This document shows positions 33,824 through 64,000 of a DNA stretch of 64,000 nucleotides, piece by piece. The stretch is from Punica granatum (lineage: Eukaryota > Streptophyta > Magnoliopsida > Myrtales > Lythraceae): contig NC_045127.1 in assembly GCF_007655135.1 (NCBI RefSeq), forward strand, positions 16,401,699 to 16,465,698. Reading direction: 5' to 3'. A model generated the notes under the pieces. It was not told where the DNA came from and made no database searches. It saw only the letters and a program-made list of their open reading frames with translations. A program made the translations under genes and the position numbers. How positions within the stretch are numbered: the stretch's first letter is position 1; every line of letters begins with the position of its first letter.

Positions 33824-33838
33824 GCTTGCCCCTCTTTG
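33824..33838 (-). other. Polypurine tract of the Tat-like element
   Basis: In element sense AAAGAGGGGCAAGC stands directly before the 3' LTR start TGTCAGCACC. Confidence 0.8.
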
Positions 33839-34008
33839 GTTGCGTGCTCGGATAGAGGATGCAGCCAAAGACTATAAGAAGCACCTCGTTTGGTCCTAGC
33901 GACCGTTTGGCAATGCTCCTCGTTTTCGCTAATATGTGGGCCTGTTGCAAAAATAGTAAAAACCATAAATTAGTAACTATGAACGCATACTTGAGAGACA
34001 TTAAGTGA

Positions 34009-36624: not shown

Positions 36625-38889
36625 TCAGGGATAGTACTTCTTAAGGGCATCGGCGTTGACTGGGAGCGCATTTTCAGTCTCGTCCATGTCGCTTAAGATA
36701 ATTGCCCCTCCGGAGAAGACTTCCTTGACGACAAAAGGCCCGTCGTACTTATATGCGAACTTGCCCCGAGAATCGGGTGTAATATGTAGGACTTTCCGCA
36801 GGACGAGGTCACCGGGTTTGAACTCGCGGTGGCGGACTCTCGCATTGAACGCTCGGGCCATTCTCTGCTGGTAGCATTGGCCGTGACAGAATGCCGTTAG
36901 TCGCTTCTTGTCAATGAGATTGAGCTGTTCACAACGTTGCTTCGCCCATTCTGCTTCTTCAAGTTCGGTCTCTGCGAGGACCCTCATGGAAGGAATCTCC
37001 ACTTCGATCGGGAGGACGGCCTCCATGCCATAGACCAAAGAATACGGGGTTGCCCCGGTTGAAGAGCGGATAGATGTTCGGTATGCCAAGAGCGCGAAAG
37101 GAAGCATCTCGTGCCAATCTTTGTAAGTCACCGTCATTTTCTCGATGATCTTCTTGATATTTTTGTTTGCAGCCTCCACTGCACCGTTCATTTGGGGACG
37201 GTATGGAGTGGAGTTGCGGTGATGCACTTTGAATCGCTCACAAAGCTCGTCAATGACCCTGTTGTTCAGGTTCTTGGCATTGTCGGTGATGATCGTCTCG
37301 GGAACTCCGTATCGGGCGATGATGTCACGCTTGAGAAAACGTGCCACAGCATTTGCTGTGACTGAAGCAAGCGTTACGGCCTCGATCCACTTGGTAAAAT
37401 AGTCTATCGCCACCAAAATGAATTGGTGTCCGTTGGATGCTTTGGGATTGATAGGACCGATCACGTCGATACCCCACATTGAAAAGGGCCATGGGGCTGC
37501 CATCGGGCGCAACTCGTTAGGCGGTGCTTTGATCTGGTCGGCATACACCTGGCACAAGTGGCAATGCTTGACGTGTTTGACGCAATCGGCTTCCATGGTG
37601 GACCAAAAGTAACCCAAACGCATGAGTTTCTTGGCAAGCATAAGTCCGCTCATGTGGGGTCCGCAGCTCCCTTCGTGTATCTCTCCCATGAGACGTTGTG
37701 CCTCAACTTCGTCAACACACCGGAGTAGTGTGGCGTCGAAAGAACGGCGATAGAGAGTTTCTCCACTCAGGAAATAATGTGCTGCGAGTCGCCGAAGTGT
37801 TTTTCGATCACGACGGTTAGTGAATGTAGGGTATTGACCGGTTTGCAAGAAATGCTTAATGTCTTCGTACCATGGCTGCTCATCGGTCGCCTCGATTGCG
37901 TCGCAGTGAGCAGGGCCTTTGGCGATCTCGATCTCGAGTGGTTCAATGAGGTTTTCTTTCGTGATGCTCACCATGGAAGCGAGCGTCGCAAGTGCATCTG
38001 CAAATTGGTTCTTGATGCGAGGTGTGTATGTGAATGAGATTTTCTCGAAGTTCTCCGCTAACTCCTCAAGATACTCGTGATATGGCACTAGCTTTTCGTC
38101 CTTCGTCTTCCATTGCCCCAGAGTCTGGAAGATTGTAAGCATAGAATCTCCGAACACTTCTAGCTCCTTCACCTTGAAGTCAATCGCCGCTTGCAGGCCA
38201 AGGATGCATGCCTCGTATTCAGCCACGTTGTTGGTGCAGGAAAAATCGACTTTTGCTGCAATCGGATAATAGCGTCCGTCGGGGGATATCAGCACTGCAC
38301 CAATGCCGGAACCGGTGGAATTCACTGCGCCGTCGAAATACATCTTCCATGCGAATTTGTTCTCCTCACTATCCACTTGGAGAATCCCTTCGTCTGGAAA
38401 ATTAGAGTTGATTGGTGTATCGTCTTCGATTGAGAACTCCGCTAAGTGATCTGCAATTGCCTGCCCCTTAACTGATGTGCGGGGCACATATTCAATGTCG
38501 TACTCCGTCAGCTGACATCGCCACTTTGAAATATTCTTCATGGAAGATGGACTATCGAGCAAGTACTTCAGGGGATCCGCCTTTGACAATAAGCGGATAG
38601 TGTGGTAGAGCGTGAATTGTCGAAGTCTCTGCATAACCCATACTAGCGCGCAATATATCTTCTCAATCTCCGAGTAGTTAGACTCCCCTTCGGTAAACTT
38701 CTTGCTCAAATAATAAATAGCGTGTTCTGCGCGCGTGGACTCCTCTTCCTGCCCTAACATGCATCCTAGGGATTGCTGGCGTATTGTCAAGTAAAGTATC
38801 AGCGGACGATCTGGTGTCGGCGGAACTAGCACTGGTGGCTGCGCCAAATATGCCTTGATAGTATCGAAGGCCTTCTGACATTCCTCGTC
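36625..38889 (-). CDS. Gypsy pol: RNase H, second (archaeal-type) RNase H, integrase
   Basis: A 740-codon frame. Residues ~15-145 are the RT-linked RNase H (LILYLTIRQQSLGCMLGQ, AIYYLSKKF, NYSEIEK). Residues ~165-295 are a second RNase H (WKMYFDGAVNSTGSGIG, NNVAEYEACILGLQAAID, LEVFGDSML, FADALATLAS), the Tat-lineage hallmark. Next come the integrase HHCC zinc site (HEGSCGPHMSG ... CHLCQ) and the D,D35E core (MWGIDVIGP, IITDNAKN, GAVEAANKN), then an RKVL-type C-terminal tail. It is one frame with the RT upstream except for a TGA at 38887-38889. Integrase inserts the cDNA; the RNases H remove template RNA. Confidence 0.92.
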   Translation of the reverse strand, partial: DEECQKAFDTIKAYLAQPPVLVPPTPDRPLILYLTIRQQSLGCMLGQEEESTRAEHAIYYLSKKFTEGESNYSEIEKIYCALVWVMQRLRQFTLYHTIRLLSKADPLKYLLDSPSSMKNISKWRCQLTEYDIEYVPRTSVKGQAIADHLAEFSIEDDTPINSNFPDEGILQVDSEENKFAWKMYFDGAVNSTGSGIGAVLISPDGRYYPIAAKVDFSCTNNVAEYEACILGLQAAIDFKVKELEVFGDSMLTIFQTLGQWKTKDEKLVPYHEYLEELAENFEKISFTYTPRIKNQFADALATLASMVSITKENLIEPLEIEIAKGPAHCDAIEATDEQPWYEDIKHFLQTGQYPTFTNRRDRKTLRRLAAHYFLSGETLYRRSFDATLLRCVDEVEAQRLMGEIHEGSCGPHMSGLMLAKKLMRLGYFWSTMEADCVKHVKHCHLCQVYADQIKAPPNELRPMAAPWPFSMWGIDVIGPINPKASNGHQFILVAIDYFTKWIEAVTLASVTANAVARFLKRDIIARYGVPETIITDNAKNLNNRVIDELCERFKVHHRNSTPYRPQMNGAVEAANKNIKKIIEKMTVTYKDWHEMLPFALLAYRTSIRSSTGATPYSLVYGMEAVLPIEVEIPSMRVLAETELEEAEWAKQRCEQLNLIDKKRLTAFCHGQCYQQRMARAFNARVRHREFKPGDLVLRKVLHITPDSRGKFAYKYDGPFVVKEVFSGGAIILSDMDETENALPVNADALKKYYP

Positions 38890-40069
38890 TCACTCAATTG
38901 CTGCATTTTTATGAAGCAGACGAAAGAGTGGTTGACATTTGTCTGTCAGGTTTGCGATAAATCTTGCAATGTAGTTCAGCCGTCCCAAGAAACCTCGTAC
39001 TTCGCGGGCCGTCGATGGCGGACGTAGCTCCCTGATTGCCTTCACCTTGTCCGGGTCAACCTCAATGCCTCGCTCACTGACCACAAATCCTAACAGTTTT
39101 CCTGACTTAGCGCCGAATATGCACTTCGTCGGGTTGAGTCTAAGCTTGTACTTCTTGAGGCGGTCAAAAAGGCGCTTTAAATTAACCAGGTGGTCCTCTC
39201 CTTCTTTGGATTTGGCAATCATGTCGTCAACGTAGACCTCGATCTCTTTGTGCATCATGTCGTGGAATAGCGTGACCATCGCCCTCTGATATGTTGCCCC
39301 GGCATTTTTGAGGCCGAAGGGCATGACTCGGTAACAGAAAGTGCCCCACATTGTGATGAACGTCGTCTTGATCTTGTCCTCTTCGGCCATCTTAATCTGG
39401 TTATACCCGGAGAAGCCATCCATGAAGGAGAACAACGTGTGGCGTGCTGTGTTGTCGACTAAGACGTCAATGTGAGGTAGGGGGAAGTTATCTTTGGGGC
39501 TGGCTTTGTTGAGGTCTCGGTAGTCGATGCAGACTCTAACTCTTCCATCCTTCTTCTCTACGGGCACGATATTCGCTACCCATTCAGAATAATTGCAAAC
39601 CTCCAGGAACCCTGCGTTGATCTGTTTAATAATCTCCTCTTTGATGCGAAGGAGAAGACCAGCACGTTGCCGCCGTAAGTGCTGTCGCTTGGGTGGAAAC
39701 CTCTCTGTATCAAGCGGTAGGAAGTGCTTGACTATCGACGGATCTAAGCCCGGCATGTCGGCGTAGGACCAAGCAAAGACCTCTTGGTAGTCTTTTAGGA
39801 ATTCGATCATCCTGGCTCGTTGTGTAGAGTCGAGACCGGTCCCAATCTTCAGGATGTGAGGTTCTTCTTCGGTACCAACATTGATCTCCTCTGTCGGCTC
39901 CACGGAAGTGAGTTGGCGGTTCTCAAGGCGACGCAAACTCTCTTCTATCTTGGGCACTCGACCATCCTCGTCGAGTCCTTCCCCGAAGTATATGGGTCGG
40001 GACTCTTCAAGGAGTTCCTCGGATGGGTTCGAATCGACGCGTCGAAGACTCAGATTCGAGTGGAGCCTG
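38890..40069 (-). CDS. Gypsy reverse transcriptase
   Basis: The RT domain spans most of the frame: FPPKRQHLRRQRAG, VPVEKKDGRVRVCIDYRDLN, DNFPLPHID, LFSFMDGFSGYNQI, MPFGLKNAGATYQRAM, catalytic EVYVDDMIAKS (about 39220-39245), LRLNPTKCIFGAKSGKLLGF. An ATG-less open stretch continues upstream to a TAA near 40070, so the frame has no obvious start of its own. In Ogre-type elements the RT region is joined to gag-pro by splicing, which would explain this. The downstream TGA (38887-38889) interrupts passage into RNase H. Confidence 0.9.
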
Positions 40070-40268
40070 GCGATTTAAATAAATTGTCTTAGAAAATTTA
40101 AAGTGCTGCAAATAAGTGAGAGAGAAAGAAAGAAGACGAGAGAGTTTTGAAAAATGCATGTAGGGATTTTATTAATGATGAGGGCGCAATGCCATAACAA
40201 GAATCCCTCTTCCGTCGTGTGGCTTATGGCTATGCCGACACGCGGGGAATAACAAAACATAGATGGCC
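40070..40268 (-). other. Gap between gag-pro and RT, possible intron
   Basis: About 200 nt with stops in all sense frames. The protease frame ends in GATGTGTAAGG, whose GTGTAAG resembles a plant 5' splice site (complement of 40267-40274), and C/T-rich AG sites (for example CTAAG and GCCAG, near 40067-40095) lie before the RT frame. Ogre elements are known to have an intron at this place. I could not find a phase-perfect acceptor by eye. Confidence 0.4.
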
Positions 40269-42431
40269 TTACACATCGGCGATTACAGCCGAGTAACGCG
40301 GGACTGAGGTCCAGTTGTTGAGTTCCTCATTTTCCTGCGCAAGGCGGATGTAAGCCCCTGGAGTTGTCTCCTCGGTGAAGGCGCATATGTTTGGCAGGTC
40401 AACAGGCTCGCTGTCTGTATCCGAGGAGAGACCGTCAAGTGTACCTCCGACGATGTGTGGAGGCCCAGGAAAAAAGTAGGAGAGCGGCTGAACCGGGATG
40501 CCCCTGTTGATCTTCCCATAGCGTGCAGCGAGACGGTGAAGGTACTTGCCCCTGCGGGCCTCAATAATCTCATGACAGGAAGGGCGAAAACCGAGTCCCC
40601 TCCTGTTCTTGTACTCTTCGACCTCGATGGGGCGGTTGATCCCCTGCCCATGTGCTCCGAGTCCGGTGTCGGGGATGTAATTGTGGCGCAGCAAAACCTT
40701 CCCCACCATGCGGTCAGCGCGAGTTGGACCGATCTCTCCGTAGTCTCGAATGACGGAGATGGTTTCAAATGAATGGAAGGGGAGGTTTTGATCGTCCCCG
40801 ATACTGATGTAGGGAACAGCTGTCTCCTTGTAAATGGCATAGTCCTCCTCACCCTTGACCGTGATAAGTCGATCTTCTGCGATGAATTTGATCCTTTGGT
40901 GTAGGGACGAAAGAACGGCGCCAGCTGCATGGATCCACGGTCTCCCGAGCAACAAGCTGAAAGCGTTCGGAATGTCTAGGACTTGGAACGTAACAGCGAA
41001 TGAGCAGGGACCCACCTCGATCACCAGGTCGATCTCTCCATTTACTTCCCTCCGCGAGCCGTCGAAGGCTCGAACCGCAGTTTTGCTCGGACGGATGCGG
41101 TTAAAGTCCACGTTCATCTGCTTCAGCGTGGAAACCGGGCAAACATTGAGTGACGAGCCATTGTCGATCATGACCCGACCGATGATAAAGTTATTGCACT
41201 TGCAGACAATGTGTAGTGCCCGCGAGTGTGCCCACCCTTCTGAGGGAAGTTCATCATCTGAAAATGAAATGTTGTTGGAGAAGATCGAACTGATAGTCTC
41301 CTCAATCCGCTCCGGAGCCGTCTCTTTGGGGATCTGCGCTGCTGTCAGGACCTTCAGAAGCGTTTCACGATGTGGCTCTGAACCCAAGAGGAGGGCGAGT
41401 AGCGAAATATGGGCCGGAGACTTGCCCATTTGTTCAACAACCTTGTACTCGCTTGCTTTGATAATCTTCATGAAAGCCTCGGCCTCCTCTTCAGTCACCT
41501 TCTTCTGGGGAATAGACGAAGCTTCCGGGGCAACTCCGGGCACTGTTAGGGCTTTCCCTTTGTTTGCAGCCTTCGGATTTTCATAGACTCGACCCGAGCG
41601 CGTCACGCCCATGACGCTAAATTGACTCTCGAGGTTCCCAACACTTCCCTCGTAGGTCCACGGGACCTTACTGTCTTGATATGGCTCTCGTGCGGGGACT
41701 TCTATCACGAATGGGGCGGGCGTGGCATCGAACCCTGTGTACCCTACACCAGCTTCTGCAGGAACATATTCGATCACAAACGGGGCTGGTGCCTCCTGTC
41801 CGGTCTCGTACTCCCCTATAGCGCAAACACCGATCATGTTAATGCTGGGTCCCGAGCTCGACCCGTGATCGGGAAGAGGATTTGATTGCACGTTCGGGGG
41901 TTTGACGGCGTTGAACGTGAGTTGCTTGTCATCAATCAACTGTTGGATCCTCTCCCGTAGTTTCCAACAATTGTCAGTGGTGTGACCGGGTGCGCCCTGA
42001 TGGTACTCGCAGCGCCGACTCTGATCTTGGATGGTTGGGTCGAAATCAGGGTTAGGTGCTATTGATCGGATCTTGTTACCCGCGAGGAGTTGCCGGTATA
42101 TGTAGGAGAGCGGAGCCGGCAGAGGTGAGAACTGTTTACGCTGCGTTTGTGTTGCGATGCCCTGTTGGTCCTGCGGAGCCGGAGCCCGTTGCACCGGCTG
42201 AGGAGTTCTCGAAGCCGGGGGCCTACTTTGTTGAATCGGAGGAGGAGCAGGGGCATAATTATGGGCGTATAGCTGCGGGACCGACGACGGAAAGGAAGCC
42301 GGCGGAGCGGAATAGTAAGCTTGCTGTGTTGGGGGTTGTTGTTGATAATGCACCGAAGGTGGGGCATACGCTTGAGTGGCCGATGGTGCGAGCGTGTAGC
42401 TTATGGAATATTGCTGGGGAGCCTGGTGCCC
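40269..42431 (-). CDS. Gypsy gag C-terminus and aspartic protease with G-patch
   Basis: A Pro/Gln/Ala-rich start is followed by a zinc-knuckle-like CEYHQGAPGHTTDNCWKLR and a retropepsin. Its active-site motif is VMIDNGSSLNVCP (about 41145-41175), with DNGS where many elements have D(T/S)G(A/S), and its C-terminal motif is LLLGRPWIHAAGAV. After the protease comes a glycine-rich block DTGLGAHGQGINRPI...RRGLGF (about 40580-40690) that looks like a G-patch, an RNA-binding module. The frame is continuous with gag apart from a TGA at 42432-42434. Usually this part is released from a gag-pro polyprotein. Confidence 0.82.
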   Translation of the reverse strand, partial: GHQAPQQYSISYTLAPSATQAYAPPSVHYQQQPPTQQAYYSAPPASFPSSVPQLYAHNYAPAPPPIQQSRPPASRTPQPVQRAPAPQDQQGIATQTQRKQFSPLPAPLSYIYRQLLAGNKIRSIAPNPDFDPTIQDQSRRCEYHQGAPGHTTDNCWKLRERIQQLIDDKQLTFNAVKPPNVQSNPLPDHGSSSGPSINMIGVCAIGEYETGQEAPAPFVIEYVPAEAGVGYTGFDATPAPFVIEVPAREPYQDSKVPWTYEGSVGNLESQFSVMGVTRSGRVYENPKAANKGKALTVPGVAPEASSIPQKKVTEEEAEAFMKIIKASEYKVVEQMGKSPAHISLLALLLGSEPHRETLLKVLTAAQIPKETAPERIEETISSIFSNNISFSDDELPSEGWAHSRALHIVCKCNNFIIGRVMIDNGSSLNVCPVSTLKQMNVDFNRIRPSKTAVRAFDGSRREVNGEIDLVIEVGPCSFAVTFQVLDIPNAFSLLLGRPWIHAAGAVLSSLHQRIKFIAEDRLITVKGEEDYAIYKETAVPYISIGDDQNLPFHSFETISVIRDYGEIGPTRADRMVGKVLLRHNYIPDTGLGAHGQGINRPIEVEEYKNRRGLGFRPSCHEIIEARRGKYLHRLAARYGKINRGIPVQPLSYFFPGPPHIVGGTLDGLSSDTDSEPVDLPNICAFTEETTPGAYIRLAQENEELNNWTSVPRYSAVIADV

Positions 42432-43936
42432 TCAGTTGACAGCGTTGACGGACGTGTCTTTCCCTCTCCTGTTTCCCGTTGTCCCAGTGGCGGCCCTCTT
42501 CGAGGACTCTCCCTCCTTTTTCTCGACCGGACCTTCTATCTTGCCGAGCTTAATGCCAATGTCGAGCTTCTTTCCGGCGTCGATAAGGTTGGAGAATGAA
42601 GACGTGTGGGCCAACAAGTGCAAGTAGTAGGCCCCTTTAAGAGTGGAGTGGAATAATAGGATCTGCTGTGCCTCACTGATCGTAGGGACGTGCTTCGCCG
42701 CTCTAGCTCGCCACTTCACTGCATAGGCCTCGAAGCCCTGGTCCTCGGTCATCTCCATCGTGCTGAGCTCCAGCAGAGTCGGGGGCGTCTCCGCACAGTA
42801 CCTGTACTGGTCGATGAATTTGCTTGAGAGATCTGCCCACGTGGGGATATCTGCAGCTTTCAGTGACATGTACCAATCTAGAGCCGCTCCTGCCAAACTA
42901 TCCTGGAACGTATGGATGACAAACTCTTCGTAGTCCCAGTACTGCAGCATTTTTCCCCGGTAGTGACGGAGATGGTGACGAGGGTCGGTCGTGCCGTAGT
43001 ACCTCTGGAATTCAGGCACCTTAATCTTTGGGGGTAGCTGCATGCTTGGGAAAAGACTCCAATCGCCGTCGCCGGCATCGAGGCGGGAGCCGCCCGATTG
43101 TAGGGCTCGGATATTCTCTTCCAACTTCTTCAATCTCTGTTCCTGTTCAATCCGGTTTCCGGGAGAAAATTTGTGGGTGGAGCTCTAGGGGCCGCGTGGT
43201 TCGGCGTGCCCGGTTCAGAATAGGCTATATTTATGGGAGGTGGAGCTTGGTAAGAAAGGCCGATATGGGGTTGTGGAGCTTGGTACGGGGGAGGTTCAGC
43301 AGTGTGAGCAGGAGCCTGGGCAGTTGTAGGCAGGAATATGATCGGCGGTGGGACAGCGGAAGTCGGAGCTGGGACCGACGCAGAGACCGAAACCGGGACT
43401 GATGTGGAGATCGGTGGAGGTACGAGCGTAGGTGGTTCCAACATTGTCGCTGAAGCAGGTGGTGCTGGAAGATTGTTAACCGGATGGGCCGCCGGCGCGT
43501 TCACTATCATTGGGGCAGACGTATCTCCATTATCAGGAATCAAGGTCGGCTGGGCCCATGGGCTTGGATCGACCGCTGGCCCGTACCCAGGAGGTGGGGT
43601 GAAGCTCGAAGAAGCGCGATTTGGGCCTTTGAGTAGGGCCATGAGCTCGGCCATATTGGTGGCCATGGTGGCAGCCAATTGATTGACCGTGCTCTCAAGT
43701 ACTGCAATACGTGCACGATCATCAGCTGCGGAAGATGGCTGCCCTCCTGAATATGCCGGGTGTGGGCCCGAAGATACAGGTGGCTGAAGATGAGTCGGGG
43801 AAGCTCCCCGATGTGCTGGTGGCACGCCTGCAGGAGACACGGGTGGTGGTGGCGCATGCATAGTCGGTGCTTGAGAATGAATTGGGGTGATAGGCGTATC
43901 TTCCTCAAAGACAGCTAATTGATTTTCTTCTGCCAT
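42432..43936 (-). pseudogene. Gypsy gag, frameshifted
   Basis: The N-terminal 268 codons (43130-43936) are Pro/Ala/Ser-rich, with an early VLESTVNQLAATMATNMAEL helix. The C-terminal 233 codons (42432-43133) carry the conserved capsid block (PPKIKVPEFQRYYGTTDPRHH, LAGAALDWYMSL, WADLSSKFIDQY, MTEDQGFEAYAVKWRARAAK). The two overlap in different frames near 43130-43190. A run of T next to the shift (element sense, about 43168) suggests a one-base indel. Gag forms the virus-like particle. Confidence 0.85.
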
Positions 43937-44235
43937 TCTTTGCTGAAAACGAGTGGGATATCGATGAGGTGCCGCCAGTTGTTAACACCTAGATTCCATA
44001 AGTGCGTGAGTAAAGATTCTCTTTAAAATGAATAAGGTATTGAATAAAAGAGGAAATGCATGAAATGCATGAAATTGAAAACTAATGCTGCCATTTGTAT
44101 TGACTCCGAACGATCCAAAATACAATGCAAATTTTTAAAAGAAATAGTCCTAAATCGATCTTCCACCACGCTCGGGAACCAAGTAACCATCGCCGTGGAA
44201 AGCCCTAGTTCGAGGGTCTAGCGGGGGTGTCTATC
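43937..44235 (-). other. Spacer between ORF1 and gag
   Basis: About 300 bp with no open frame of note, AT-rich in the middle (43990-44150). It separates the ORF1 stop from the gag start codon. Confidence 0.5.
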
Positions 44236-45726
44236 CTAGGGTGTATATGGACCCCCGCGGGCCCTTTTCCTAGACCTCTCCAAAGCGGCGTTTACTCGTA
44301 CCAATTCCTGATCGCACCTCTGTAGCTCGGCACGGGTCTGGGCGAGCTCTCTCTGTAGTTGGCGCTGATCAACAAGCTGCTCGTCCTTCTCTGCGACTTC
44401 TCGACGAAGATGATCTCTTTCAGCTCTGAGATGAGTGAGCTCGGTTTGGATGGACATATTTGGAGTGGGAGTTGCGCCGGGTGACCTGCCATCTTCGACT
44501 CGCGGAGAGTTGACGAGATCCTCGTGTGCTGCTGGACCCCATCGGTAGAAGCGAATGATGTATTCTTCTGTAGCCTGGAAATCCCGCTCATCAAGGGTCG
44601 GATGCTCGGGGAAGTATGGACGCTCGGTAATCACAGTTCGCCACGCATCCAGAACCTGTTCGATGTTACTTTGGCGATATGCGGGTGTCTGATCCTCCCG
44701 CCAAGTATGTTCAAATCTAGTTTGCGTCGTATCCTCGGGGACCGTCTGTAAGCCACCGAGCTGCCTCACTACTCGCGCCGGAAAATAAGTGGTGGACCCC
44801 GCATGACTCATGAGTGGGACTCCATAAAAATCATGACACCTAAGGGCCATGGGTCCGGGTGGCATCCACGCGGCACGCCACTTGAAGCCCCTAGGTGCTA
44901 TTTCACGAAAAATTTTGATCCACTCAGAGACCGTGCGTTCTTCCACACGCAGGAGGGGTAGCAATCGAGAAATAATTGACTCCGGACCATTAAAATACAT
45001 AATCGAGCGCAACAGACGCAGAGGGTTTGCGTGACTCTGAAGCCAAATTTGTAAAAGCATAGGGGATCCTCTTATCCTTCGGTCGCATGTTCTCAAGACG
45101 CGGTCGAGGGATCGGATGGTCTCAGCCACGAGGGCTACCTCATAACCACGCCCTCCGACCACTTGGAGGACAACACTGGCCAAGGCAGCATCGATGAGAC
45201 TATGCGAGCGAGGGAATAAGAGGGTTCCAAAGATTAGCAATAGAACAGCATGACATAAATCCTTTCGAAGAAAATCCCCCCGGACCCTATGCGCTCGTGA
45301 CTTAATAAAAAATAAGAGTTTCTCGATTGCAATCTCCGTGCTGCCGGAGTATGCGAGTTCAGCATTCAAACGAGTCGTGGGAACCCCGAGTAGGCGTGAG
45401 ACTAGGATTGGTCGGGTGGTGTGGAAGTTGGGCTCTACGATGCCGTGGACAACTGCGGTTCGACCGATGAGTGTCCGGTACTCCTCAATGGTTGGCGTGA
45501 GCTCGGTACCCTGTATGTCGAAGACGGCACGACTTGGATTCCAGAATGCGATGGCGGCTTCGAGGAAATTCCAATCAACTTGCCGAGTGGCCAGCAAAGG
45601 GATATCCCCTATGAACGCAGAGATGTAACGGCGGTCGACTGGGCGTAATGCTCCCCATATACGAGTAATCTCCTCAAGCGGTGGTGTGACTCTGTCGAGG
45701 CGCGGGTAGGAGACCGAGCGTGACAT
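44236..45726 (-). CDS. ORF1 of the Tat-like element, DUF7745 / plant-mobile-domain-like
   Basis: An intact 496-codon frame lies between the 5' LTR and gag. Residues ~15-330 (IWGALRPVDRRYISAFIGDI, FLEAAIAFWNPSRAVFDIQG, TELTPTIEEYRTLIGR, LVSRLLGVP, LLIFGTLLFPR) match, as I recall it, the DUF7745 family, a plant domain related to the mobile/aminotransferase-like domain of host proteins such as MAIN. The last ~70 residues form a charged coiled coil (TELTHLRAERDHLRREVAEK...) ending in a basic RKRARGG. Its function in the element is unknown. Tat/Ogre elements typically have an extra ORF here. The frame is intact while gag is not. Confidence 0.82.
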   Translation of the reverse strand: MSRSVSYPRLDRVTPPLEEITRIWGALRPVDRRYISAFIGDIPLLATRQVDWNFLEAAIAFWNPSRAVFDIQGTELTPTIEEYRTLIGRTAVVHGIVEPNFHTTRPILVSRLLGVPTTRLNAELAYSGSTEIAIEKLLFFIKSRAHRVRGDFLRKDLCHAVLLLIFGTLLFPRSHSLIDAALASVVLQVVGGRGYEVALVAETIRSLDRVLRTCDRRIRGSPMLLQIWLQSHANPLRLLRSIMYFNGPESIISRLLPLLRVEERTVSEWIKIFREIAPRGFKWRAAWMPPGPMALRCHDFYGVPLMSHAGSTTYFPARVVRQLGGLQTVPEDTTQTRFEHTWREDQTPAYRQSNIEQVLDAWRTVITERPYFPEHPTLDERDFQATEEYIIRFYRWGPAAHEDLVNSPRVEDGRSPGATPTPNMSIQTELTHLRAERDHLRREVAEKDEQLVDQRQLQRELAQTRAELQRCDQELVRVNAALERSRKRARGGPYTP

Positions 45727-46292
45727 CCCTTACCAAGATGAAAGGAAGATCGATTTAAGACTAGTCAATACAAATGACACCTTAATTTTGAAATTGGATG
45801 ATGCATGTATGCATGAAATAAAAATGCCCACGGCTTAATGAATATTATACATCGCACATCTCTCTCAAGAACAGAAGGAAAAAAATTCAAATTGGCGCGC
45901 AGGCCGACTCAAGGACTGTTGTTGAAGTCGGGTTGAAGGATGGCGTGGAGCTCCTGCAGAATGCATGGTTTTGGCACTACAGGGACCGTGCTACGTAAGG
46001 ATGGGGGCTCCCGACTCAAGGGTGTCTATTCCTTGAAATCGAGCGGGGATCTTTGGGGGCCTAATCGACGGTCCAACCGTGCGACGTACCCTTACTCGGA
46101 ACCCCTATCTAACCTGTGTTTCCTAAAATCGGTCGTGGGACGCGACCCGTAGGTACCTAGAAGCTAGTATGATTATGCAATGCATGTGCGGGAAATTAAA
46201 AATGCATAAAGTAGATAAGCGAAAAATTACAGAAAGCGATAAATAAACAAGCAAACAAAGCAAGCGGAAATGAGCCCGAACCCTCTAAGTGG
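45727..46292 (-). other. 5' leader of the Tat-like element
   Basis: Non-coding DNA between PBS and ORF1. Small plus-strand frames across it have no domain. Confidence 0.55.
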
Positions 46293-52300: not shown

Positions 52301-53989
52301 GGAATGATCGAAACACTCCGAGCCGAGTAAAGTCGGACAGCCCGTGCAGGCGCAGATCTTATCTAAATAGCCCTATTTATCCGACCGAAGTGTTTTTATC
52401 ATTCTAACATTGATTCGAGCGCTTAGGAACGTGAACTAGAGATGCAAGCGAAGAAGACCCGTGAAAGGCTGCCTAGTTCCTCCAGGATTGAGAATGGGGG
52501 TCTTGGCTCCCTCGTGGTGTTTCGCGCTTCCACCTTCCTAAGTTTATGTTTAGATTTGGTTAAAACATGAAAACAGATTAACTTCAAACTCGATATAATC
52601 AAACATAGGAAAATAGGCAGGATAAAACCCTAGGTCTCAGGATTTTGGCAAAACACACTCTGTTCATAATCTGTTAGTCTATCATTGTCGTCAAATAGAT
52701 AAACTTAAAATGAATCCACACACCTAGGGCTTGACGTTAGACATCATATGCGTTAAGTTCTTTCTAAGCAAAGTCGAATACTATATACTATTCAGGGCGG
52801 CGCATGGTCGATCTTCACCATGTGTGGCCATTCTTTTTTTTTTAATTATTTATTTACTTAGGATAGAAACATGTCTGTTAAGCAACCCCTAGATTAATAA
52901 ATTGATAATCACGTAAACATGGCGACTAATTCACACTTTGTCTGTTTTATCTATTTTGTATGTTTTCCTATTGTCCTTGTTTGTTTTCTAGCAGTTAGGG
53001 CACAAACCCTTAGGGCACGATCGACATGGGGTCTAACCCCTCAACCATCGACCCCGAGTCCAATACCTCCACACAGTGAGTGCGCGAGACCAAAGCGCGA
53101 TATGAGGTCTAGTCTTGAGTCATCATTTCAATCCGAGTAGTATTCAAGCGGAGGATGACACGGATTGGGGCGCGTGAAATGAGGTTAGACAACCACCTAG
53201 AAGCTTAACCGGTCTTGCAGCTATCCTGAGGATCATTCGGTGATCCTGGGATTCGTCGGTTTGGTTAGACCCGACCCCCGGCTCTCATGAGCCAGCATTG
53301 CATTAATTTCTATTCCAGTCTTCCAAACTCGCAATGAGCATGAGTGGATTTTTGGCCGAAAGCTAACCGATTATAATCCGCTTGATGCAATTGAAATTTA
53401 TATTGAAAGTACATTACAAGGAGTTTATTTGTGTATTCATTCATGTAATGATTCCAGTTGGCGAGCAAATGGCCCCAATGTTAAACCGGTCGAGCGGATC
53501 TATGCTTTTTGGGGATGAGTAAGCCTTACATATCGTGATTTCAGCCCATGCAGAGAACCTGCCATCGTGGCCTGGCAAGCCGTAACGTGAGGACGACAGA
53601 CTGAACCTTCGATGCCAAGGTCTACCCCTTTCTCGGGCTTGTAGCCAGAATCGATCGCTTCTCAACAAATTTATGATGTCAAATCGAGTATGACGAGCGT
53701 AACCTAATCCATGCAGTAAACAAACTAAAAACGACAAATTCTAGACAAATTAGAGTATCGATAAGGCGTGCAGGATGTAGGCCCAGAACCCCAAACTCGA
53801 AACTTTTGATTTTCCTTACCCCTAGACTCGGGCGACTTACCGGCTCTCGATTTTCGGGTCGTGAACAGGTAATGACGACTCTTTTTCATGTGCGTCTATC
53901 ATGCGTTTCCTCGAAAAGTGGACACTCTCAGGTCGTGCAACCACACACACTCATGCGGGTCCCATCGAGACGAAATTCGAGTCCGCATA
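49319..53989 (+). mobile_element. 4.67-kb solo LTR, distant Tat/Ogre relative, TSD GG(A/T)AC
   Basis: It starts TGTTAGCACCCTG. Its last ~180 bp (53815-53989) match, motif by motif, the last part of the Tat-like LTR above, for example TACCGGCTCTCGATTTTCGGGTCGTGAA versus its reverse-strand counterpart at 31535-31556, and the end GAAATTCGAGTCCGCATA versus GAAATTCGGGTGCGCACA. The target is the copia LTR, whose uninterrupted version (58602-58620) reads GAATGGGAACGATTACAGG. The flanks are GGAAC (49314-49318) and GGTAC (53990-53994). A CT-rich tract lies at 49970-50230 and a (TC)n run at 50753-50769. LTRs of this size occur in Ogre elements. I found no coding sequence. Confidence 0.8.
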
Positions 53990-54189
53990 GGTACGATTAC
54001 AAGAAATAGGGTAAGCAGCCTAGGTAAACGAGGAACCCCCCAAATTAGATGTCTAACAAAGAATTACAGTTAATAGCAAGAGATGATTCTAGCATAATAC
54101 ATAACATCTACCCAAGTATACAATATCTCCTATATATATATGGTACATGAGTCCCAAGAATATCATGAGAATGTATCATAATTCTCCCC

Positions 54190-55428
54190 CTCAAGTTGGA
54201 GCTTGAGGATCTCGAATGCCCAACTTGCCAAGAGTGAACCGGATCCCATCCCCACCCAATGCTTTAATCGGCAAGCTGAAGTCACGTTGAAATGTGAGCA
54301 ATAGCAATGGCGCTAGTCTTGACATGGTCTTGTATGAAATGGTAGTCAATCTCAATGAGCTTGGTTCATTCATGAAACACAAGATTGGCAGCAATTTGAA
54401 GGGTCGTCTGATTATCGCAAAACAAACAAGTTGGTCTAGTCGATGTAACTCCAACTGACGTCAATAGAGCACGAAGCCAAATGACCTCACTCACAGCTCT
54501 GACCATGGCCTACTTTCTACCTCTACAAATGATTGAGAGACTATTGTCTGCTTCTTGGTCTCCCAAGAAATAGAATAACCATCCAGCGTAATGAAATACC
54601 CAATGACAAATCATCTAATAGTTGGGTAACTTGCCCAATCAGAATCACAATATGCCTCTAGTTCCATTGACTGAGGACGTAGAAAAATCTCTTGTCCATG
54701 AGACTGCTTGAGATATTGTAACACTTGTATCGCCACATCTCAATACTCCTAACGGGGTTCTTGCATAAATTGGGATAAGACATTAACAAAATAACTAAGC
54801 TCTGGTCATGTGATGGCCAAATAGATCAATCGCCCCGCGATTCGCCGATACTGACTTCGATCCGTGAGAAGTGAGCCCATAGCTAGAGCAAGATGATGAT
54901 CTGTTCCATGTAAAAAGCTATAGGTTGTGATCCCAAGAGACCAGGCTCACCAAGAATATCTAGTACATACTTGTGTTGGCTATGAAAAAGACCACAACCC
55001 ATCTTGGCAACCTCAATTCCCAAGAAATAGCAAAGAGGACCCAAGTCCTTGATGCGGAAGCATTGATTCAGGTATCCCTTGAAGAGAGCACACTGACGAG
55101 AATTGTTGCCAACAACAAGTAGATCATCAACATATACAAATACGGCAAGGAAAATCGTACCTAGATTGAAAGTGAAGAGAGAATGGTCCACTACGAAATG
55201 CCGAAAACCATAATGTTGTAAGGCATCCGCAAATTTAGAAAACCAGTTCCGTGATACTTGGTGGAGTCCATATAAGGATTTAAGGAGTTTGCAAGCATAA
55301 CCCGTTCCTGGCCGTGAGAAACCGAGAGGAAACTTCATATAGACCTCTTCATCTAACTCTTCATGAAGAAAAACATTGCGTACATCCATATGATGGATTT
55401 CCCATTGACACGCCGTGGCCACAGTCAA
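54190..55428 (-). pseudogene. Copia pol remnant: RT and RNase H
   Basis: 54883-55428 encodes RT: MDVRNVFLHEELDEEVYM, FSRPGTGYACKLLKSLYGL, catalytic VFVYVDDLLVVGN, IKDLGPLCYFLGIEVA, VLDILGEPGLLGSQP. Downstream, to 54190, decayed fragments of RNase H are spread over frames with stops. The order and the YVDD box define copia. Confidence 0.88.
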
Positions 55429-55445
55429 TAAACAACGAACAGTGG

Positions 55446-56740
55446 CTAATTTGGCGACCAGGGCAAAGGTCTCATGGAAGTCAACGCCTTCAATCTGTGT
55501 GAAACCTTTTGATACAAACGAGCCTTAAATCGCTCGATAGAGCCATATGTTCTTCTTTTAATTTTGAACACCCACTTGCAGTCAATCGGGTGTTTGCCTG
55601 CAAGAACTTCCTCAACTCTCCAAGTCCGATTAGCCTCGAGGGCACGAACTTCCTCGGCCATGGCAGCACACCATCGAGAATCTCGATGGGCCTCTTGATG
55701 AGCTTTCGGCTCGATGTCCGAATCAATGGTGGCTAGAGATGACAATTGACTAATAGAAGTGCCTGAATAAGAAAAATAATTTTCTATTAGATAGGATGTA
55801 CCTGTTGTGGTGGAGGGTTGTGGAGGGGAGAGGGTTTTGTTCGAGGCATGAGTTGCAGTGTGGCATATGAAGTCCTTATACTTGATCGGTGCGGAAGTTA
55901 TCCTATTTGACTGTCTCAAAACTGGAACAGCAGGCTGTTGTTCCAATTCTGTATCAGACGGGTTAGAAGAAACAGCCTGCTCCGGATGAAAATTCGACCC
56001 GGATCCTGATGGAGGCGAATCGGGCTGCACTGTGGAAATGGGCTGCGCTGGAGGCAGATCTGATTGGACGGGCTGAACAGATTCGGATTGCTCTGTTGAA
56101 ACGGGCTCGGATCCAACGAATGGAGGCCCGGCTTGTGTAGAAGTCGGCCCAGAGACAACCGGCTCTCTTCCTGGTGGGCCTAGACTAAATGTTGATGTAT
56201 CTCTGGGCCCTCCTGGGAGATTCTTCCCCAATCGGTCCGGTAGCCCACAGATTGACCCATTTGCTTCATCATTTCTCCCCCTTTCTCTATTATAGTTCCA
56301 ATCCGAAATTTCCCCCTCGGTGAAATAAATTGGTGTGTCAACTCCTCCAGCTTGTGAAGGAAATGTTCTGCCATCCAGTAAAACTAAGCCTTATTCGAAA
56401 AATGGGAATATATCTTCGAAAAATCTCGCATCCCTGGAGATAAATATCTCTCGAGTATCGAGGTCGTACAAGCGCCATCCTTTCTTTCCATGCAGGTAGC
56501 CGCTGCTATGCATTCACCCCAAAAGCGCACAGGTAATGAGGCCCAAAAGAGTGAGGCTCGAGCGATATAAGTCGATGTTTCCGTTCGACTCTCCCGTTCT
56601 GCTGCAGTGTATCTATGCATGAAAGTTTGGTGTATGATGCCATTAGACATGAAATAATCTTGTAAATCTCTTGATAAGAATTTCATGCCATTGTCACTCT
56701 GAATAATTTTAACTGTTCGATTAAATTGTTTACGAACAAG
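55446..56740 (-). pseudogene. Copia pol remnant: integrase C-terminus and linker to RT
   Basis: 56384-56686 has integrase C-terminal text (LASRDLQ-type MKFLSRDLQDYFMSNGIIHQ, frame-shifted, then SLFWASLPVRFWGECIAAA). 55446-56231 holds the Ser/Pro/Gln-rich linker and the start of RT (AVLRQSNRITSAPIKYKDFI-like, HREARDSRWCAAMAEEVRAL, NRTWRVEEV, IDCKWVFKIK). Several frameshifts separate these. Confidence 0.8.
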
Positions 56741-58545
56741 GTTGCATAACTCAATGAGATATCATCGTGCCTCTGATTTATCCCGCAATAGATATAACCT
56801 AATCACCCTACTTATAGTCATCAACAATGGTACGAAAATAATAGGCTCCAGTGATTGACTTCTTCTTATACGTCCCCCATAAATCGCAATGAACTAGTTG
56901 AAAAGGATAACCGGCTTGATTCATACTTAATGAAAAATGTCACTGTGTTTGTTTAGGGAGGAGACAAATATCACATGGTTTATTCTCAACAACACCTAAA
57001 GAAATGCCCTTAAATTTAACAAGACGTGATGGGTGCCCGAGTCGTCGATGCCAAATTTATGTATGATCACCGTCCATAGGCCGATATGCAATCGCCCGTG
57101 ACGCCACACACCTTAAATAGTAAAACACAAACCCAAGCGTCCTCTTCGACGTTTGGTCCCGTATCAGGCATAAATGACGAAGGAAAGTCACTTGACAATT
57201 CAAATCGGTTGATAATTGAGCGACAGAAATTTAGTTGCAATTAAAAGTAGGAATAAATAACAAATTCGACAAGATAAAATCCTCCCCAATCTTCACTCTC
57301 CCCATTCGCGAGGCACGAGTACTACTTCCATCGGGAATGGTAACGAGAAAATTCCCGGCAATAGTGCGAGGATCCGTGAGGCAATTGATGGTTTCTGTCA
57401 TATGCTTCGAGGTTCCGGTGTCAATAATCCAATCATACTTCACATCCATGAAAACAAATCCGTTACCCGATAATGGCTGGATGTCATAGCTGTCCTGCCC
57501 AACGGTCACCATGCTCAGCAGCTCATCAGTAATTACTCCAGAAGGCCTGGATCCACTGCTCTGGGCCGCATGGGCTTGATGCTGAGCTGGGCCTACTTGT
57601 TTCCATTGGCCCCGACTGGTTTTGGCCCTTGTTCCCACCGCCGGTCGTCTTCTTCCCCTTTCCTTTGTAACCCGAGGTCTTCGCAGAAGACTCGGCTGGA
57701 ACGGAAGACTGATTTGCCATGCCTTGCTGCCATGAGAGGCCATGAAGTGCCCAGCAGCTGCTCTTCAAGTGACCAGTGCGACCACAGTGGTCACAAATAC
57801 GTATCTGCTGATTCTCTCCTCCATCTGCCTTCGCAATAGAAACTGACAGCCTCTCGGCCAGCCTCATGTGTGCGAGTCACCTATCGTTGGCTTTCTTCTG
57901 CCATGACCGTGTTGAAAATCTTGTTGAGGGTCGGGAACGGCTCGAGATTGAGAATATTCGAGCGCATTGTTCCATACTCCGCGCATTGTTACCTCCCTCG
58001 CATGAACATATGCCTATCTCGAGAAAATTCTCGAGCTCATCCAAAAGCATCTTAAACTTTGAATAGTAATCTGCCACCGATCGTCCTTCTTGTTGGGAAG
58101 ACATATCTCAGATTTTATCTGAAATATGCGAGCGTCGTTGCCATGACAATGACGCTGCTTCAAGTCGTCCCACATCTCCTTAGCCCCGGTAGCATGAGCA
58201 ACACCGCCCTGAAGGTCTTTCTCCAGCTAGTGGAAGACCCAAGTAGCTACGATGGCGTTGCAAGCTTCCCATTTTCCCTAGAGTGGATCTCCTTCTGCTA
58301 GTTTCGACACCTTAATTTTCCTTTGGCCTTCAACGCCATCTGCACGGCTCGTGTCCATGTTATGTAGTTCCTGCCGTTCAACAAGCAGGTAATGAGCACA
58401 ATTCCGGACCGTCCAACTGGTTGAGAAGATAGACCGATGGAGTCGACTGTCATCCGCCGCTGGTGGCTCCATTGTTTCCAGTCGTCAACTGTCCCTGCCA
58501 TCTCCAACGATCGGGTAAGGTTACAAAGTCGACCTCAGAAACGTC
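56741..58545 (-). pseudogene. Copia gag, zinc knuckle, protease and pre-integrase remnants
   Basis: In element order: a gag N-terminus with NGRNYITWTRAVQMALKAKGK (58298-58507), gag middle SVADYYSKFKMLLDELENF (57877-58104), a CCHC knuckle CDHCGRTGHLKSSCW (57526-57867), and protease WIIDTGTSKHMTETI (57231-57743). A decayed pre-integrase/integrase core with stops follows to 56741. The gag starts directly after the PBS. Confidence 0.82.
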
Positions 58546-58782
58546 GCTCTGATACCATAAAGACTTTTATGAATATGTGTGCTTAGCTTGATTGAATGGG
58601 AACGATTACAGGAAATTGGCTAAGCAGCCTAGGTAAACAAGTAAACCCCTAATTAGATGCCGAACTAAGAATTACAGTTAATAGCAAGAGATGATTCTAG
58701 TCTAATACATAACATCTACCCAAATATACTATCTCCTATATATATGGTACATGAGTCCCGAGAATAGCACGAGAATGTATCG

Positions 58783-59130
58783 TAATAGTAGACTATCAAG
58801 GAGGCCGGTGTCCGGCTTATGTCGGTGCACTATACACCCATCAACATATTTTGCAAGTGCTTGGACTCAGGGCTGTGTTAGTTTAGTTACTTTGGAAGGA
58901 AAGTCGTGTAGCGAGCAACATAGTGTCCCATATATTACCTTTCCTCTCACAATAAGTTCGCCAGGAGGACCCTCAACTGCCTCTATCTTTACCACCACGA
59001 CCTCCGGCCAGCATGATCACCTCTATGACCACTAGATACCGTATTGCATGAGCTATACTGATGATCGACTCGTATTGTCTGGCAATCATGATTGACTAGA
59101 CTGACTACATCTATTTAGTCTAACATATCC
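58783..59130. other. Unassigned DNA between copia element and MULE
   Basis: A 94-codon plus-strand frame overlaps this stretch (58751-59035), but it starts in the copia LTR and shows no domain. Nothing else is recognised. Confidence 0.4.
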
Positions 59131-59535
59131 AAAGGAGGAAAATTACTTCCATAATACAAAACCTTTTAAGTTGTAACGCGGACGGTATAAAATCTTTTTT
59201 TTTGTAACAATTTGGTACAAAACGTATCAAATTGTTTCAATCAAGTTCAATCCGTCAATTTTCGCTAACGCCGTGAACACCTTCTAACGTGGCAAGCTAC
59301 GTGGCAAGTCGTGTAATACGTGACTGACAACTTAAAACACTCGTTCCTAAGGCGGGAAATAATCCAAGGGCTGAAAAAAGAAAAACGCAAAATAAAAGAC
59401 AAAAAGGAAAACTTGAGAGAGAAGACGGAGGGTTGAGGGGAGACGATGCCACTGGTTGTTTCATTGTTTCGTTCTCTCCTTCTACTTGTGATCAGGCTAG
59501 GGTTTCATTGCAGGCAGTGAGAGGAATCAAAGCAC

Positions 59536-61284
59536 ATGCAAGGTTTTGGTTTGTCTATAATGCCTCACGATCTAAGCTCCTTGGACCGTGCTCCTGTGCA
59601 TGGTAAGTAATCTATTAGCTTACTGTGTCGATGATGTCTATGGTTTAGATTTTAGGTTTTGGGTGAAGTCGAAAGGTGTGTAAGGTTGGATTATCTGGTG
59701 TTGCTGTGCTTTGAGTTTAATAATCGTCTTTTTCCCCCGAAAAACATAAAAAAAGGTTCGAACTTGCAGCAATAATGGAGTTTTTGTTCGGTGTTGGGTG
59801 GGGCTTGACTTTTTGTTGATCTGAAGTTTTCATCACCCTCTCCCTTCCCTTCCCTGTCTGTCTTCAGCTTGCTTGATTTTGAAAGATTTTGCTGTGATTT
59901 GGTTAGTTTACTTCTCTCTCTCTCTCTCTATCTATCTGTAGTTGGTGTTGTTCGGTGAGTTTTTTGTAAGACCCTACATTACTTCTGCATATATAAAAGT
60001 CTATCCTTTGAGCTTGCTTAAAGACTTTCTTCAATGAGCATTCACATCAAATAGTTTATACGTCTACTTATTACCGTGTTCTTTTGTTGTTCTGTTTTGT
60101 CCTGTTGATTGCTCTGATGCTTGGTGCTTAGTGGACATTATGACTTGAACTCTTTAAATTACCTTTTATTTATCATATATGGCATAGATTCATGTTGCCT
60201 CATGAGCCCCTTTGCATTCACTATATATACATATATAGAGAGAGAAGCTACATAAATCCATTATGATATATACAGAGCCTCAAAAATGTGTGTGGCTCAG
60301 ATTGGCAAATGTCATATCTGAAAAATCTACCTGTATATTCTATTTAATATGCCAATATTAAGAACTTGGATTTGAAGAAGCCACCTTTGAGAAAGTTGAC
60401 ATGCTTCTGGCAGCTTATTAATGTAAAACATTAGGATAATTATGCAAGAATTAGCAACAAACTTTAAAATGCCATGGCTGAGCAATTATGCTTATCTGCT
60501 GTAATGTCTCACATGAATCTTTCATTCATATGTAGTTGCTTCGAGCATTCCTCTAATATTTTTTTGTTCTTGTAATTTTCATTGTCTTGAGCCCCTCTGC
60601 ATTGACTAATATGAATTGATTTGAGAATAGAAGGTTTACTCGATTGAGTGTTGGATGAAGCATCTTTCAATCTCTCTTGATATTAGTTGCCTTGAAACAA
60701 ATTTTTAGTACCCATGTATTGCTAAGCCCTCAGTTTGGTCTGTGAATGATCTCATCTTATATTCATTTTTTGTCTTATATTGAGTAGGATTGAATGGTCA
60801 ATTGGGATCACAATTGTTATGTTTAGAAAGTCAAAGGCTTTTTTGCTTTTTTAGCCCTCGTTAAGCATTTATGATGATGGGGTTTTTGTTTTGGTCCACA
60901 GAGGAGGCTATGGGAGATGCAGGAGACGCAAATGAGGTTGTTAGAGATGCAGAGGAGGCTATGGGAGATGCAAACAGAGATGTGCCTTCAGTTGATGTCC
61001 AAAATGACATTAAGTATGTAAACTTACATATGGAGGTGTTAAGAATAGATTATGAGAAAGCTTGGGATGAGGGTTTTGAATTGAATGATACTGATAATGA
61101 CATGACAGCTGCAGTGGGAATAGATGCAAATGATTGCATCTATCATATAGTATTTGGGGTGGTAGAGATTAAGAATAAAGAATCTTGGTCATGGTTCTTA
61201 GAAAATTTGGCAAGAGACTTGAATATTGATGATTCCTCCTCCTTGACTTTTATGGGAGATAAAGATAAGGTTTGGTTTTATTGA
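59536..61284 (+). pseudogene. MULE transposase gene, left arm, internally deleted
   Basis: Exon 1 is 59536-59602 (ATG to GCATG before GTAAGT). After a ~1.3-kb intron, exon 2 starts at 60902 (CCACAG), and the split Glu codon joins in phase. Exon 2 has an acidic repeat (EEAMGDA.DANEVV twice), then jumps from NDTDNDM (about 61105) into the MULE transposase block IDANDCIYHIVFGVVEIKNK, ESWSWFLENLARDLNID, and ends with TAA-type stop at 61284. The DNA-binding domain and first catalytic region are deleted, with AG microhomology at the junction near 61108. It cannot make a working transposase but could still be transcribed into the hairpin. Confidence 0.75.
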
Positions 61285-61329
61285 AAATCGATTAGGTTTA
61301 TTTACATATATGTATTAATTTATTTGAAC

Positions 61330-61521
61330 CTACTTAAATGCCTATTTACTTGTGGGACTTGCTGATAGTGTTTTTCTTTTCTTGTGTTATGTTATCAAGG
61401 GGTTAGTTCTATCCCTAGATGAAATGTTTCCTCTTGCAGAAAAAAGGTTCTACACTCGACATCTATGGAAAAATCTTTGCAGAGTAGACACTATCAAGAA
61501 GGGAAAAGAATTGAAAGACCT
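61330..61521 (+). pseudogene. MULE transposase, C-terminal fragment, left arm
   Basis: A frame across 61352-61633 reads MGLADSVFLFLCYVIKGLVL (partly intronic or decayed), SLDEMFPLAEKRFYTRHLWK and KGKELKDLLWVVAKATYPAEFRKHME. The latter two match the part of MULE transposases after the second catalytic Asp. Homology runs past the arm end into the loop (to about 61574), so the loop is genuine element sequence kept only once. Confidence 0.75.
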
Positions 61522-61574
61522 ACTATGGGTTGTTGCCAAAGCCACTTACCCAGCAGAATTCAGGAAGCACATGG

Positions 61575-63090
61575 AGGTCTTTCAATTATGTTCCCTTCTT
61601 GATAGTGTCTACTCTGCAAAGATTTTTTCATAGATGTCGAGTGCATAACCTTTTTTTCTGCAAGAGGAAACATTTCGTCTAGGGATTGAACTAACCCCTT
61701 GATAACATAACACAAGAAAAGAAAAACACTATCAGCAAGTCCCACAAGTAAATAGGCATTTAAGTAGGTTCAAATAAATTAACACATATATGTAAATAAA
61801 CCTAATCGATTTTCAATAAAACCAAACATTATCTTTATCTCCCATAAAAGTCCAGGAGGAAGAATAATCAATAGTCAAGTCTCTTGCCAGATTTTCTAAG
61901 AACCATGACCAAGATTCTTTATTCTCAATCTCTACCACCCCAAATGCTATAGGATAGATACAATCATTCGCATCTTCCCACTGCAGCTAAGAGTTGTCCA
62001 CTATATCTTCCCTTAAGTCAACACCCATCCAATCCAATTAATGGTCTGCAACCAGTTAGGAAACCCCTCTTGCATGCATCAAAACATACATACATATTCT
62101 TGAAGATTGTTGGTCAGTCCCTATCAAAACAGAGGAACTAGGATTGGTCTTTCTTAATTCTTCAGAATAGTCCCATAATTTTGCATATTGTTTCTCGTCT
62201 GAACTCCTTAATAAGGTTAGAGTATAATTCCTTACCCTCTATAGCTTCATCCTGTTGCATTTGGCCTTGGAGTCATGGTCAAGCTGATGTGCAAAAGACT
62301 TGGAGTACCAATTTGGGTCAACCCGAAACTGAGTCTTATAAGTCTCACCTAACCACTTATAAGTAATATATCTATCAGGAACCTCTTTCCCACATGTGTG
62401 CTTGTCCTTATACTTCTTAATTTGTAATGCATTGTGCATTTTATTCCATGTTGACCGTAGCATCCATCCATCGCAATTCTTACACTTTGCATTGACTCTG
62501 TCCTTTTCATTCCGCACTATGACCACGTTGACTTTGTTCACAATACGATATTGCTTTACAGCATCCTTTAACTCCTTCGTGGTTCCAAACAACATACCAA
62601 TTACAAACTTCGGATCTTGCAAGTCTCTTTCTCGCCTAAATTCTAGCAACCTACTTGCACTCCCACCTTCATCGCCAGAGTCTATACTTTGGAAGCCATC
62701 AGACTCATCACCTCCATCCCCTGCCTCCCAATCACCTTATTCACCGGTAACATCGACATGTAGTTCTCTGGTTTCAGAAGAGTGGCTACTCCTCTTCCCA
62801 TGTCGAATGTCTTCTTGCAATGCAACATTCACATCCACCAAGTCCACATCATCTGTTATGTCATTATCAGTATCATTCAATTCAGAACCCTCATCCCAAG
62901 CTTTCTCATTTTCTATTCTTAACACCTCCATATGTAAGTTTACATACTCAATATCATCTTGGACATCAACTGAAGGCACATCTCTGTTTGCATCTCCCAT
63001 AGCCTCCTCTGCATCTCTAACAACCTCATTTGCGTCTCCTACATCTCCCACAGCCTCCTCTATGGACAAAAACAAAAACCCCATCATCAT
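61575..63090 (-). pseudogene. MULE transposase, right arm, with DNA-binding domain
   Basis: Minus strand, in order: the acidic N-terminal repeat (62737-63090), the MuDR-type N-terminal domain (62239-62649: FVIGMLFGTTKELKDAVKQY, CKNCDGWMLRSTWNK, KYKDKHTCG with a Cys/His zinc-like pattern), a decayed first catalytic region (61990-62230, LWDYSEELRKTNPSS and then stops), the DANDCIYPIAFGVVEIENK-type block (61860-61985) and the truncated PLAEK region (61630-61700). Several stops and shifts are present. Exon 1 and the promoter of this arm would lie beyond 64000. Confidence 0.8.
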
Positions 63091-64000
63091 AAATGTTTAA
63101 TAAGGGCCAAAAAAGCAAAAAGCCTTCGACTTTCTAAACATAACAATTGTGATCCCAATTGACCACTCAATCCCACTCAATATAAGACAAAAAATGAATA
63201 TAAGATGAGATCATTCACAGACCAAACTTAGGGCTTAGCAATACATGGGTACTTAAAATGTGTTTCAAGGCAACTAATATCAAGAGAGATTGAAAGATGC
63301 TTCATCCAACACTCAATCGAGTAAACCTTCTATTCTCAAATCAATTCATATTAGTCAATGCAGAGGGGCTCAAGACAATGAAAATTACAAGAAAAAATAT
63401 ATTAGAGGAATGCTCAAAGCAACTACATACGAATGAAAGATTCATGTGAGACATTATAGCAGATAAGCATAATTGCTCGGCCATGGCATTTAAAAGTTTG
63501 TTGCTAATTCTTGCATAATTATCCTAATGTTTTACATTAATAAGTTGCCAGAAACATGTCAACTTTCTCAAGGTGGCTTCTTCAAATCCAAGTTCTTAAT
63601 ATTGGCATATTAAATAGAATATACAGGTGGATTTTTCACATATGACATTTGCCAATTTGAGCCACACACATTTTTTAGGCTCTGTATATATGAGAATGGA
63701 TTTATGTAGCCTCTCTCTATACATGCATATATAGTGAATGAAGAGGGGCTCATGAGGCAACAGGAATCTATGCCATATATGATAGGTAATTTAAAGAGTT
63801 CAAGTCATAATGTCCACTAAGCACCGAGCATCAGAACAATCAACAGGACAAAACAGAACAACAAAAGAACACGGTAATAAGTAGACGTATCAACTATTTG
63901 ATGTGAATGCTTGTTGAAGAAGCAATGCAGGGTCTTACAAAAAACTCACCGAACAACACCAACTAGAGAGAGAGACAGAGAGGGGGGAGAGAGAGAGAGA

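Follow-up and report, generated by a model that had tools for sequence, protein, structure and literature searches.

A decaying Mutator-like palindrome in pomegranate with the architecture of maize Mu killer

Mu killer of maize is the best-known natural rearranged transposon that silences its own family. Here we describe a locus in pomegranate (Punica granatum) whose architecture is the same, as far as published descriptions of Mu killer go. It lies at the right-hand end of a 64,000-nucleotide (nt) stretch of DNA (C1:16401699-16465698; "the window", whose positions are used throughout unless stated otherwise) and is a palindrome of 5.63 kb (about 59136-64762), in which two 5′ halves of a Mutator-like element (MULE) stand tail to tail. 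To judge from its sequence, the locus is at present most likely a decaying relic that could still yield double-stranded RNA, with at most a redundant share in silencing, and it may be regarded as a silencer candidate.

The palindrome is confirmed as real. In a self-alignment of the window, 59913-61521 pairs with 61575-63996 and 53 nt lie between, which bears out the initial annotation of two MULE 5′ parts facing each other tail to tail around a loop of about 53 bp. That annotation placed the locus at 59131..64000; the palindrome does begin there, at about 59136, whereas the right end given was only the end of the window. Same-chromosome DNA past the window end (L010) supplies 762 more bases of the right arm, which ends in a terminal inverted repeat (TIR), and with these bases the outer parts also pair (59139-61117 with 64758-62844). 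Over the full alignment of the two arms, 120 of 2313 columns are mismatched (5.2%), and there are insertions and deletions besides; in a multiple alignment with relatives the mismatches are 114 of 2312 (4.9%). Absent from the left arm are 864 nt of the right arm that include the MuDR DNA-binding domain, and the gaps of the right arm against the left include one of 44 nt. The arms thus pair in two blocks, with the 864 nt as a one-sided bulge between them. Perfect arm-to-arm stretches of at least 21 nt number 33, the longest being 133 nt.

Folded as RNA, the central 882 nt reach a predicted -663.8 kcal/mol, with nearly all of their length in duplex, against a shuffle mean of -194.3 (sd 9.0). Because none of the 20 shuffles was as stable, the pairing is not due to chance. 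A survey for inverted repeats (arms no shorter than 150 nt, separated by up to 3 kb) covered 213.3 kb in 15 sequences, a non-random sample made up of the extended window and 14 fetched loci. It gave eight rows, two of which are the palindrome itself; the other six have arms of 171-447 nt with 70-84% identity, and two of these six are near-identical copies of one element.

Transposase domains above the Pfam cut-offs occur in both arms (right, PF03108; left, PF10551), and by this measure the palindrome is derived from a MULE. In the 139-residue open frame of the left arm, the 864-nt deletion fuses the N-terminal part to the MULE domain. The right-arm frames are, by eye, identical to the annotated pomegranate protein CRG98_007091 (P0001) except for an inferred intron, and this predicted intron skips the stop between the frames; the tblastn row for the protein (92.9% over 253 columns) counts the skipped part as a gap. 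CRG98_007091 is encoded on a contig of 267,689 bases, which is unlike any large chromosome of the searched genome (320,430,517 bases in 474 contigs). We infer that the protein comes from another assembly and so provides independent support for the right arm, though not for the junction. The protein search found no protein spanning the palindrome junction, and for the left arm it gave three partial matches, the best of them P0001, which corresponds to the right arm.

A first genome search returned at least 61 matches (40 of 55 candidates were scored), and the 13 best places outside the locus were fetched (L011-L023). These represent 10 distinct loci, as L014 and L015, and likewise L017 to L019, are near-identical with the same flanks. 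Eleven of the 13 are about 5.9-6.2 kb long, including L020, whose 5′ end was not located; L022 is shorter, at about 5.0 kb, and L023 longer, at about 7.3 kb. The relatives carry TIRs of about 160-200 bp at both ends, and the outer ends of the palindrome match them, 59134-59339 aligning to the 3′ end of L011. None of the 13 fetched relatives contains a second, inverted 5′ half, ordinary copies having one 5′ and one 3′ half. Compared with such copies, therefore, the palindrome consists of two 5′ halves, and both 3′ halves are missing. Its arms are about 91-93% identical to the three nearest relatives, L011, L012 and L013, over 1521 alignable columns. Within the fetched set, L017 and L018 (41 kb apart on contig C291) and L019 (on C6) show 0.000 substitutions over the compared columns and have nearly the same flanks, which suggests duplicated or redundantly assembled sequence in C291.

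Mu killer (Muk) is described as having transposase-side TIRs at both outer ends, with the 3′ halves gone (PMC3440606), and the structural analogy drawn in the initial annotation holds on both counts. As described, Muk and the pomegranate palindrome each have two partial transposase copies tail to tail, outer transposase-side TIRs and no 3′ half, and each could yield a long hairpin RNA. Views of the Muk transcript are divided: one has a perfect 2.4-kb hairpin processed to small interfering RNAs (siRNAs) (PMC2563033), the other short antisense transcripts from inside the locus (PMC3440606). A hairpin is therefore not the sole way in which such a locus could act. Read-through into Muk from a flanking gene has been proposed and is disputed in PMC3440606. 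There are also clear differences. Muk is reported to have arisen in a genetic stock and was shown genetically to silence MuDR (PMC2563033), whereas the pomegranate palindrome is a candidate silencer, derives from a MULE of another plant, has arms 5% diverged with 864 nt lost from one of them, and has no gene recognised beside it among nine scanned open frames of the window. A literature search by titles and abstract openings, covering few subscription papers, found no report of the pomegranate locus.

The palindrome probably arose by fold-back inverted duplication of the 5′ half of one MULE. The starting point would have been a single copy that already carried an insert of about 385 bp in its leader intron. 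During DNA synthesis, in replication or repair, the new strand would have used a 4-bp microhomology to jump to the opposite strand, some 53 bp away, and copied the element back out to its 5′ TIR, with loss of the 3′ half; afterwards both arms would have decayed at similar rates and the left arm would have lost its 864 nt. At the junction, CACATGG-AGGT is joined to AGGT-CTTTCAATT, two sites that are 53 bp apart in the uninterrupted element, and this form may be read as the trace left by a fold-back template switch. Uninterrupted sequence is present at the junction site in 6 of the 13 fetched relatives (at most 6 mismatches to the probe).

The two arms cluster with 100% ultrafast bootstrap in two trees, one with five relatives (7 sequences) and one with eight (10 sequences), and at 21 of 1528 columns they are alike and unlike four relatives that agree among themselves. 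In these comparisons the arms are sisters. As proof of a single origin, their sisterhood and divergence are insufficient, because some independent relatives are only 3.4-4.6% apart. We prefer a single-element origin because the insert is private to the arms and the breakpoints are nearly symmetric. A genome search with the leader intron gave seven candidates, all scored. Of these, the two arms are the only ones with the insert in a MULE context; four further loci, including one pair of copies, have the intron but no insert. The insert sequence was otherwise seen only as an isolated 88% match at L024 (C2:7106376-7106742), with no other MULE similarity in the fetched 10 kb; this is probably a small repeat or is related to the source of the insert.

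Several observations weigh against a fold-back origin. L011-L013 lack the whole intron stretch and are uninformative on the insert, and the arm divergence is not below that of some independent copies. No target-site duplication (about 9 bp) was found around the palindrome: the best pairing matches at 5 of 9 positions, which mismatched controls also reach. On the right, the TIR is joined directly to internal sequence of an unrelated palindromic repeat of high copy number (L010 from about 1463, C1:16466462 onward), and the missing part of that repeat is not in the left flank examined (58001-59160). Fold-back by itself predicts a copy of the left flank at the right end, so that some further rearrangement would be needed, for instance a later transposition accompanied by deletion of adjacent DNA.

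As a special sign, the missing target-site duplication is weakened by the ordinary copies. Among nine distinct relatives with both ends located, six score 8-9 of 9 and the others 4, 5 and 7, while 90 mismatched control pairings reach at most 7; thus, three of the nine fail likewise. Insertion of the palindrome as one unit is not supported by the target-site test. The repeat at the right flank has 416 candidates genome-wide (40 of which were scored). One copy, L026, forms an inverted repeat some 730 bp long whose two arms are 75% alike, and by comparison with this copy the right flank starts about 93 bp from the repeat centre. For the left flank, no empty site was found among six matches, which are the locus itself, the other repeat of a neighbouring Copia element and four weak ones (about 70%, over the first 260 bases only).

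There is a second way to arrive at this structure, which we consider possible though doubtful: two separate MULEs inserted tail to tail, and one deletion then took both 3′ halves, the intervening DNA and part of the flanking repeat. That one deletion would account at once for an exact TIR at either end, the lack of a target-site duplication and the truncation of the repeat in the right flank; an arm divergence close to that of independent relatives fits as well. However, among the MULE copies found the insert is present only in these two, so that both known members of the sublineage would have come to lie side by side. In addition, we estimate a chance of about 2% that random breaks in a 5.9-kb element would fall within 53 bp of symmetric positions.

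The palindrome is probably an old one. If the arms were identical at first, their 5.2% divergence corresponds to some 2-4 million years at rates of 7e-9 to 1.3e-8 substitutions per site per year. Private changes are evenly shared, 29 in the left arm and 28 in the right over 1528 columns (28 and 23 over 1521 under a stricter rule). From the centre outward, the differences per 250 columns are 8, 21, 14, 6, 9, 14, 18, 13 and 11, then 6 in 63, with no trend. On these counts the arms resemble copies in neutral decay and give no hint of conversion. L011 and L012 occupy separate chromosomes and have unlike flanks; of 1521 columns, they differ at 52 and the arms at 79, and of the 1426 columns outside CG, at 33 and 64, respectively. 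From these figures, at least one transposition in the family seems to postdate the palindrome, assuming equal rates and arms that started out identical. In the clade of L011 and L012, the two remaining pairs differ at 70 and 67 columns (48 and 48 outside CG) and are not clearly younger than the palindrome.

RNA transcribed across the centre would form a long, imperfectly paired duplex, a possible substrate for Dicer-like enzymes, and by this route the palindrome may supply small RNAs for RNA-directed DNA methylation of its own sequence and that of its relatives. The two arms have 622 distinct 24-mers in common. Each of the 10 relatives tested (duplicates left out) has 10 to 120 of these, and more with either arm alone; perfect 21-mers, too, are common to the palindrome and each of the 10. 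Silencing of the relatives in trans would thus be possible as far as sequence identity goes.

It is nevertheless unlikely, in our judgement, that the palindrome is a working silencer of the Mu killer kind, in which a transcript, from a TIR promoter or an internal antisense one, would cross the centre and give hairpin RNA, and the resulting siRNAs would silence the MULE family in trans. This is a proposal about function and is compatible with a fold-back origin. The anatomy common to both loci, the strong predicted duplex of the central 882 nt, the perfect 24-mers that the arms have in common with the 10 relatives and the survival of both TIRs speak for such a silencer. Against it, the split between L011 and L012 looks younger than the palindrome (given equal rates and identical starting arms), and the arms are decaying, with 5% divergence and the one-sided deletion of 864 nt. 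Transposase frame integrity was examined in L012 and L013: the L012 frame has in-frame stops, which also speaks against a working silencer, and L013 has an open first part of 423 residues, followed by frames in separate pieces that may be introns or breaks. Nor was a gene recognised beside the palindrome in a scan of nine open frames of the window, made with no systematic gene prediction and without the right side.

Palindromes are prone to assembly error. Nevertheless, an artefact such as a PacBio read folded back on itself is very improbable and is rejected on the arm divergence: the "Tunisia" assembly, which the searched genome appears to be, is described as PacBio long reads assembled with Canu (PMC7061868), but a folded read should give near-identical arms rather than 120 differences in 2313 columns and private insertions and deletions, one of them of 864 nt, and the right-arm frame (not the junction) recurs in CRG98_007091, apparently from another assembly.

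The features of the palindrome are collected in Table 1. Elsewhere in the window, the scanned frames with domains above cut-off look like transposon genes, and the left neighbourhood is transposon-rich. A Copia-type element (53987-58786), with RVT_2 at 54883-55524 on the minus strand, is bounded by direct repeats at 53987-54182 and 58596-58786 that are 88% alike and are probably its long terminal repeats. Further to the left, 36625-45729 on the minus strand holds Gypsy-type genes (reverse transcriptase, RNase H, integrase and gag) with a G-patch domain, adjoined by a frame similar to plant mobile domain / DUF7745. At 33807-35552, long open frames in more than one reading frame come from a short repeated motif and are probably a tandem repeat, not a gene.

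Table 1. Features of the palindrome, in window positions
Feature	Position	Strand	Basis and remarks
Left arm: MULE 5′ half (TIR, leader, leader intron, 5′ part of transposase with internal deletion)	59136..61573	+	Self-alignment and alignment to L011-L023; runs through the loop to the junction; outer end certain within about 3 bases
Left outer TIR, transposase-side end	59136..59339	+	Matches both ends of relatives
Leader-intron insert, left copy, about 385 bp	60220..60604	+	Whole-genome DNA search, alignment
Open frame of left arm, 139 aa, transposase fragment	60865..61284	+	Pfam MULE PF10551, E 5.4e-7
Loop, 53 nt, transposase exon continuing the left copy	61522..61574	+	Junction at 4-bp microhomology AGGT
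Right arm: inverted second MULE 5′ half	61575..64000, onward to about 64762 (L010 position 1461)	-	Ends in its own 5′ TIR
Segment in right arm only, 864 alignment columns	61989..62843 (ends approximate)	-	DBD_Tnp_Mut PF03108, E 7.1e-7
Transposase frames of right arm, 119 aa + 165 aa, stop between	62239..63096	-	Match to CRG98_007091
Leader-intron insert, right copy, about 380 bp	63356..63735	-	

On its sequence, there is a slim chance that the palindrome is an independent equivalent of Mu killer in a woody eudicot, whose hairpin siRNAs would have helped, a few million years ago, to shut off the MULE family to which it belongs, and which may still contribute to silencing. If so, inverted self-duplication would be a recurrent route of transposon self-silencing. 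A second locus with the anatomy of Mu killer, from a distantly related plant and seemingly millions of years old, would bear on how often such silencers arise and how long they last.

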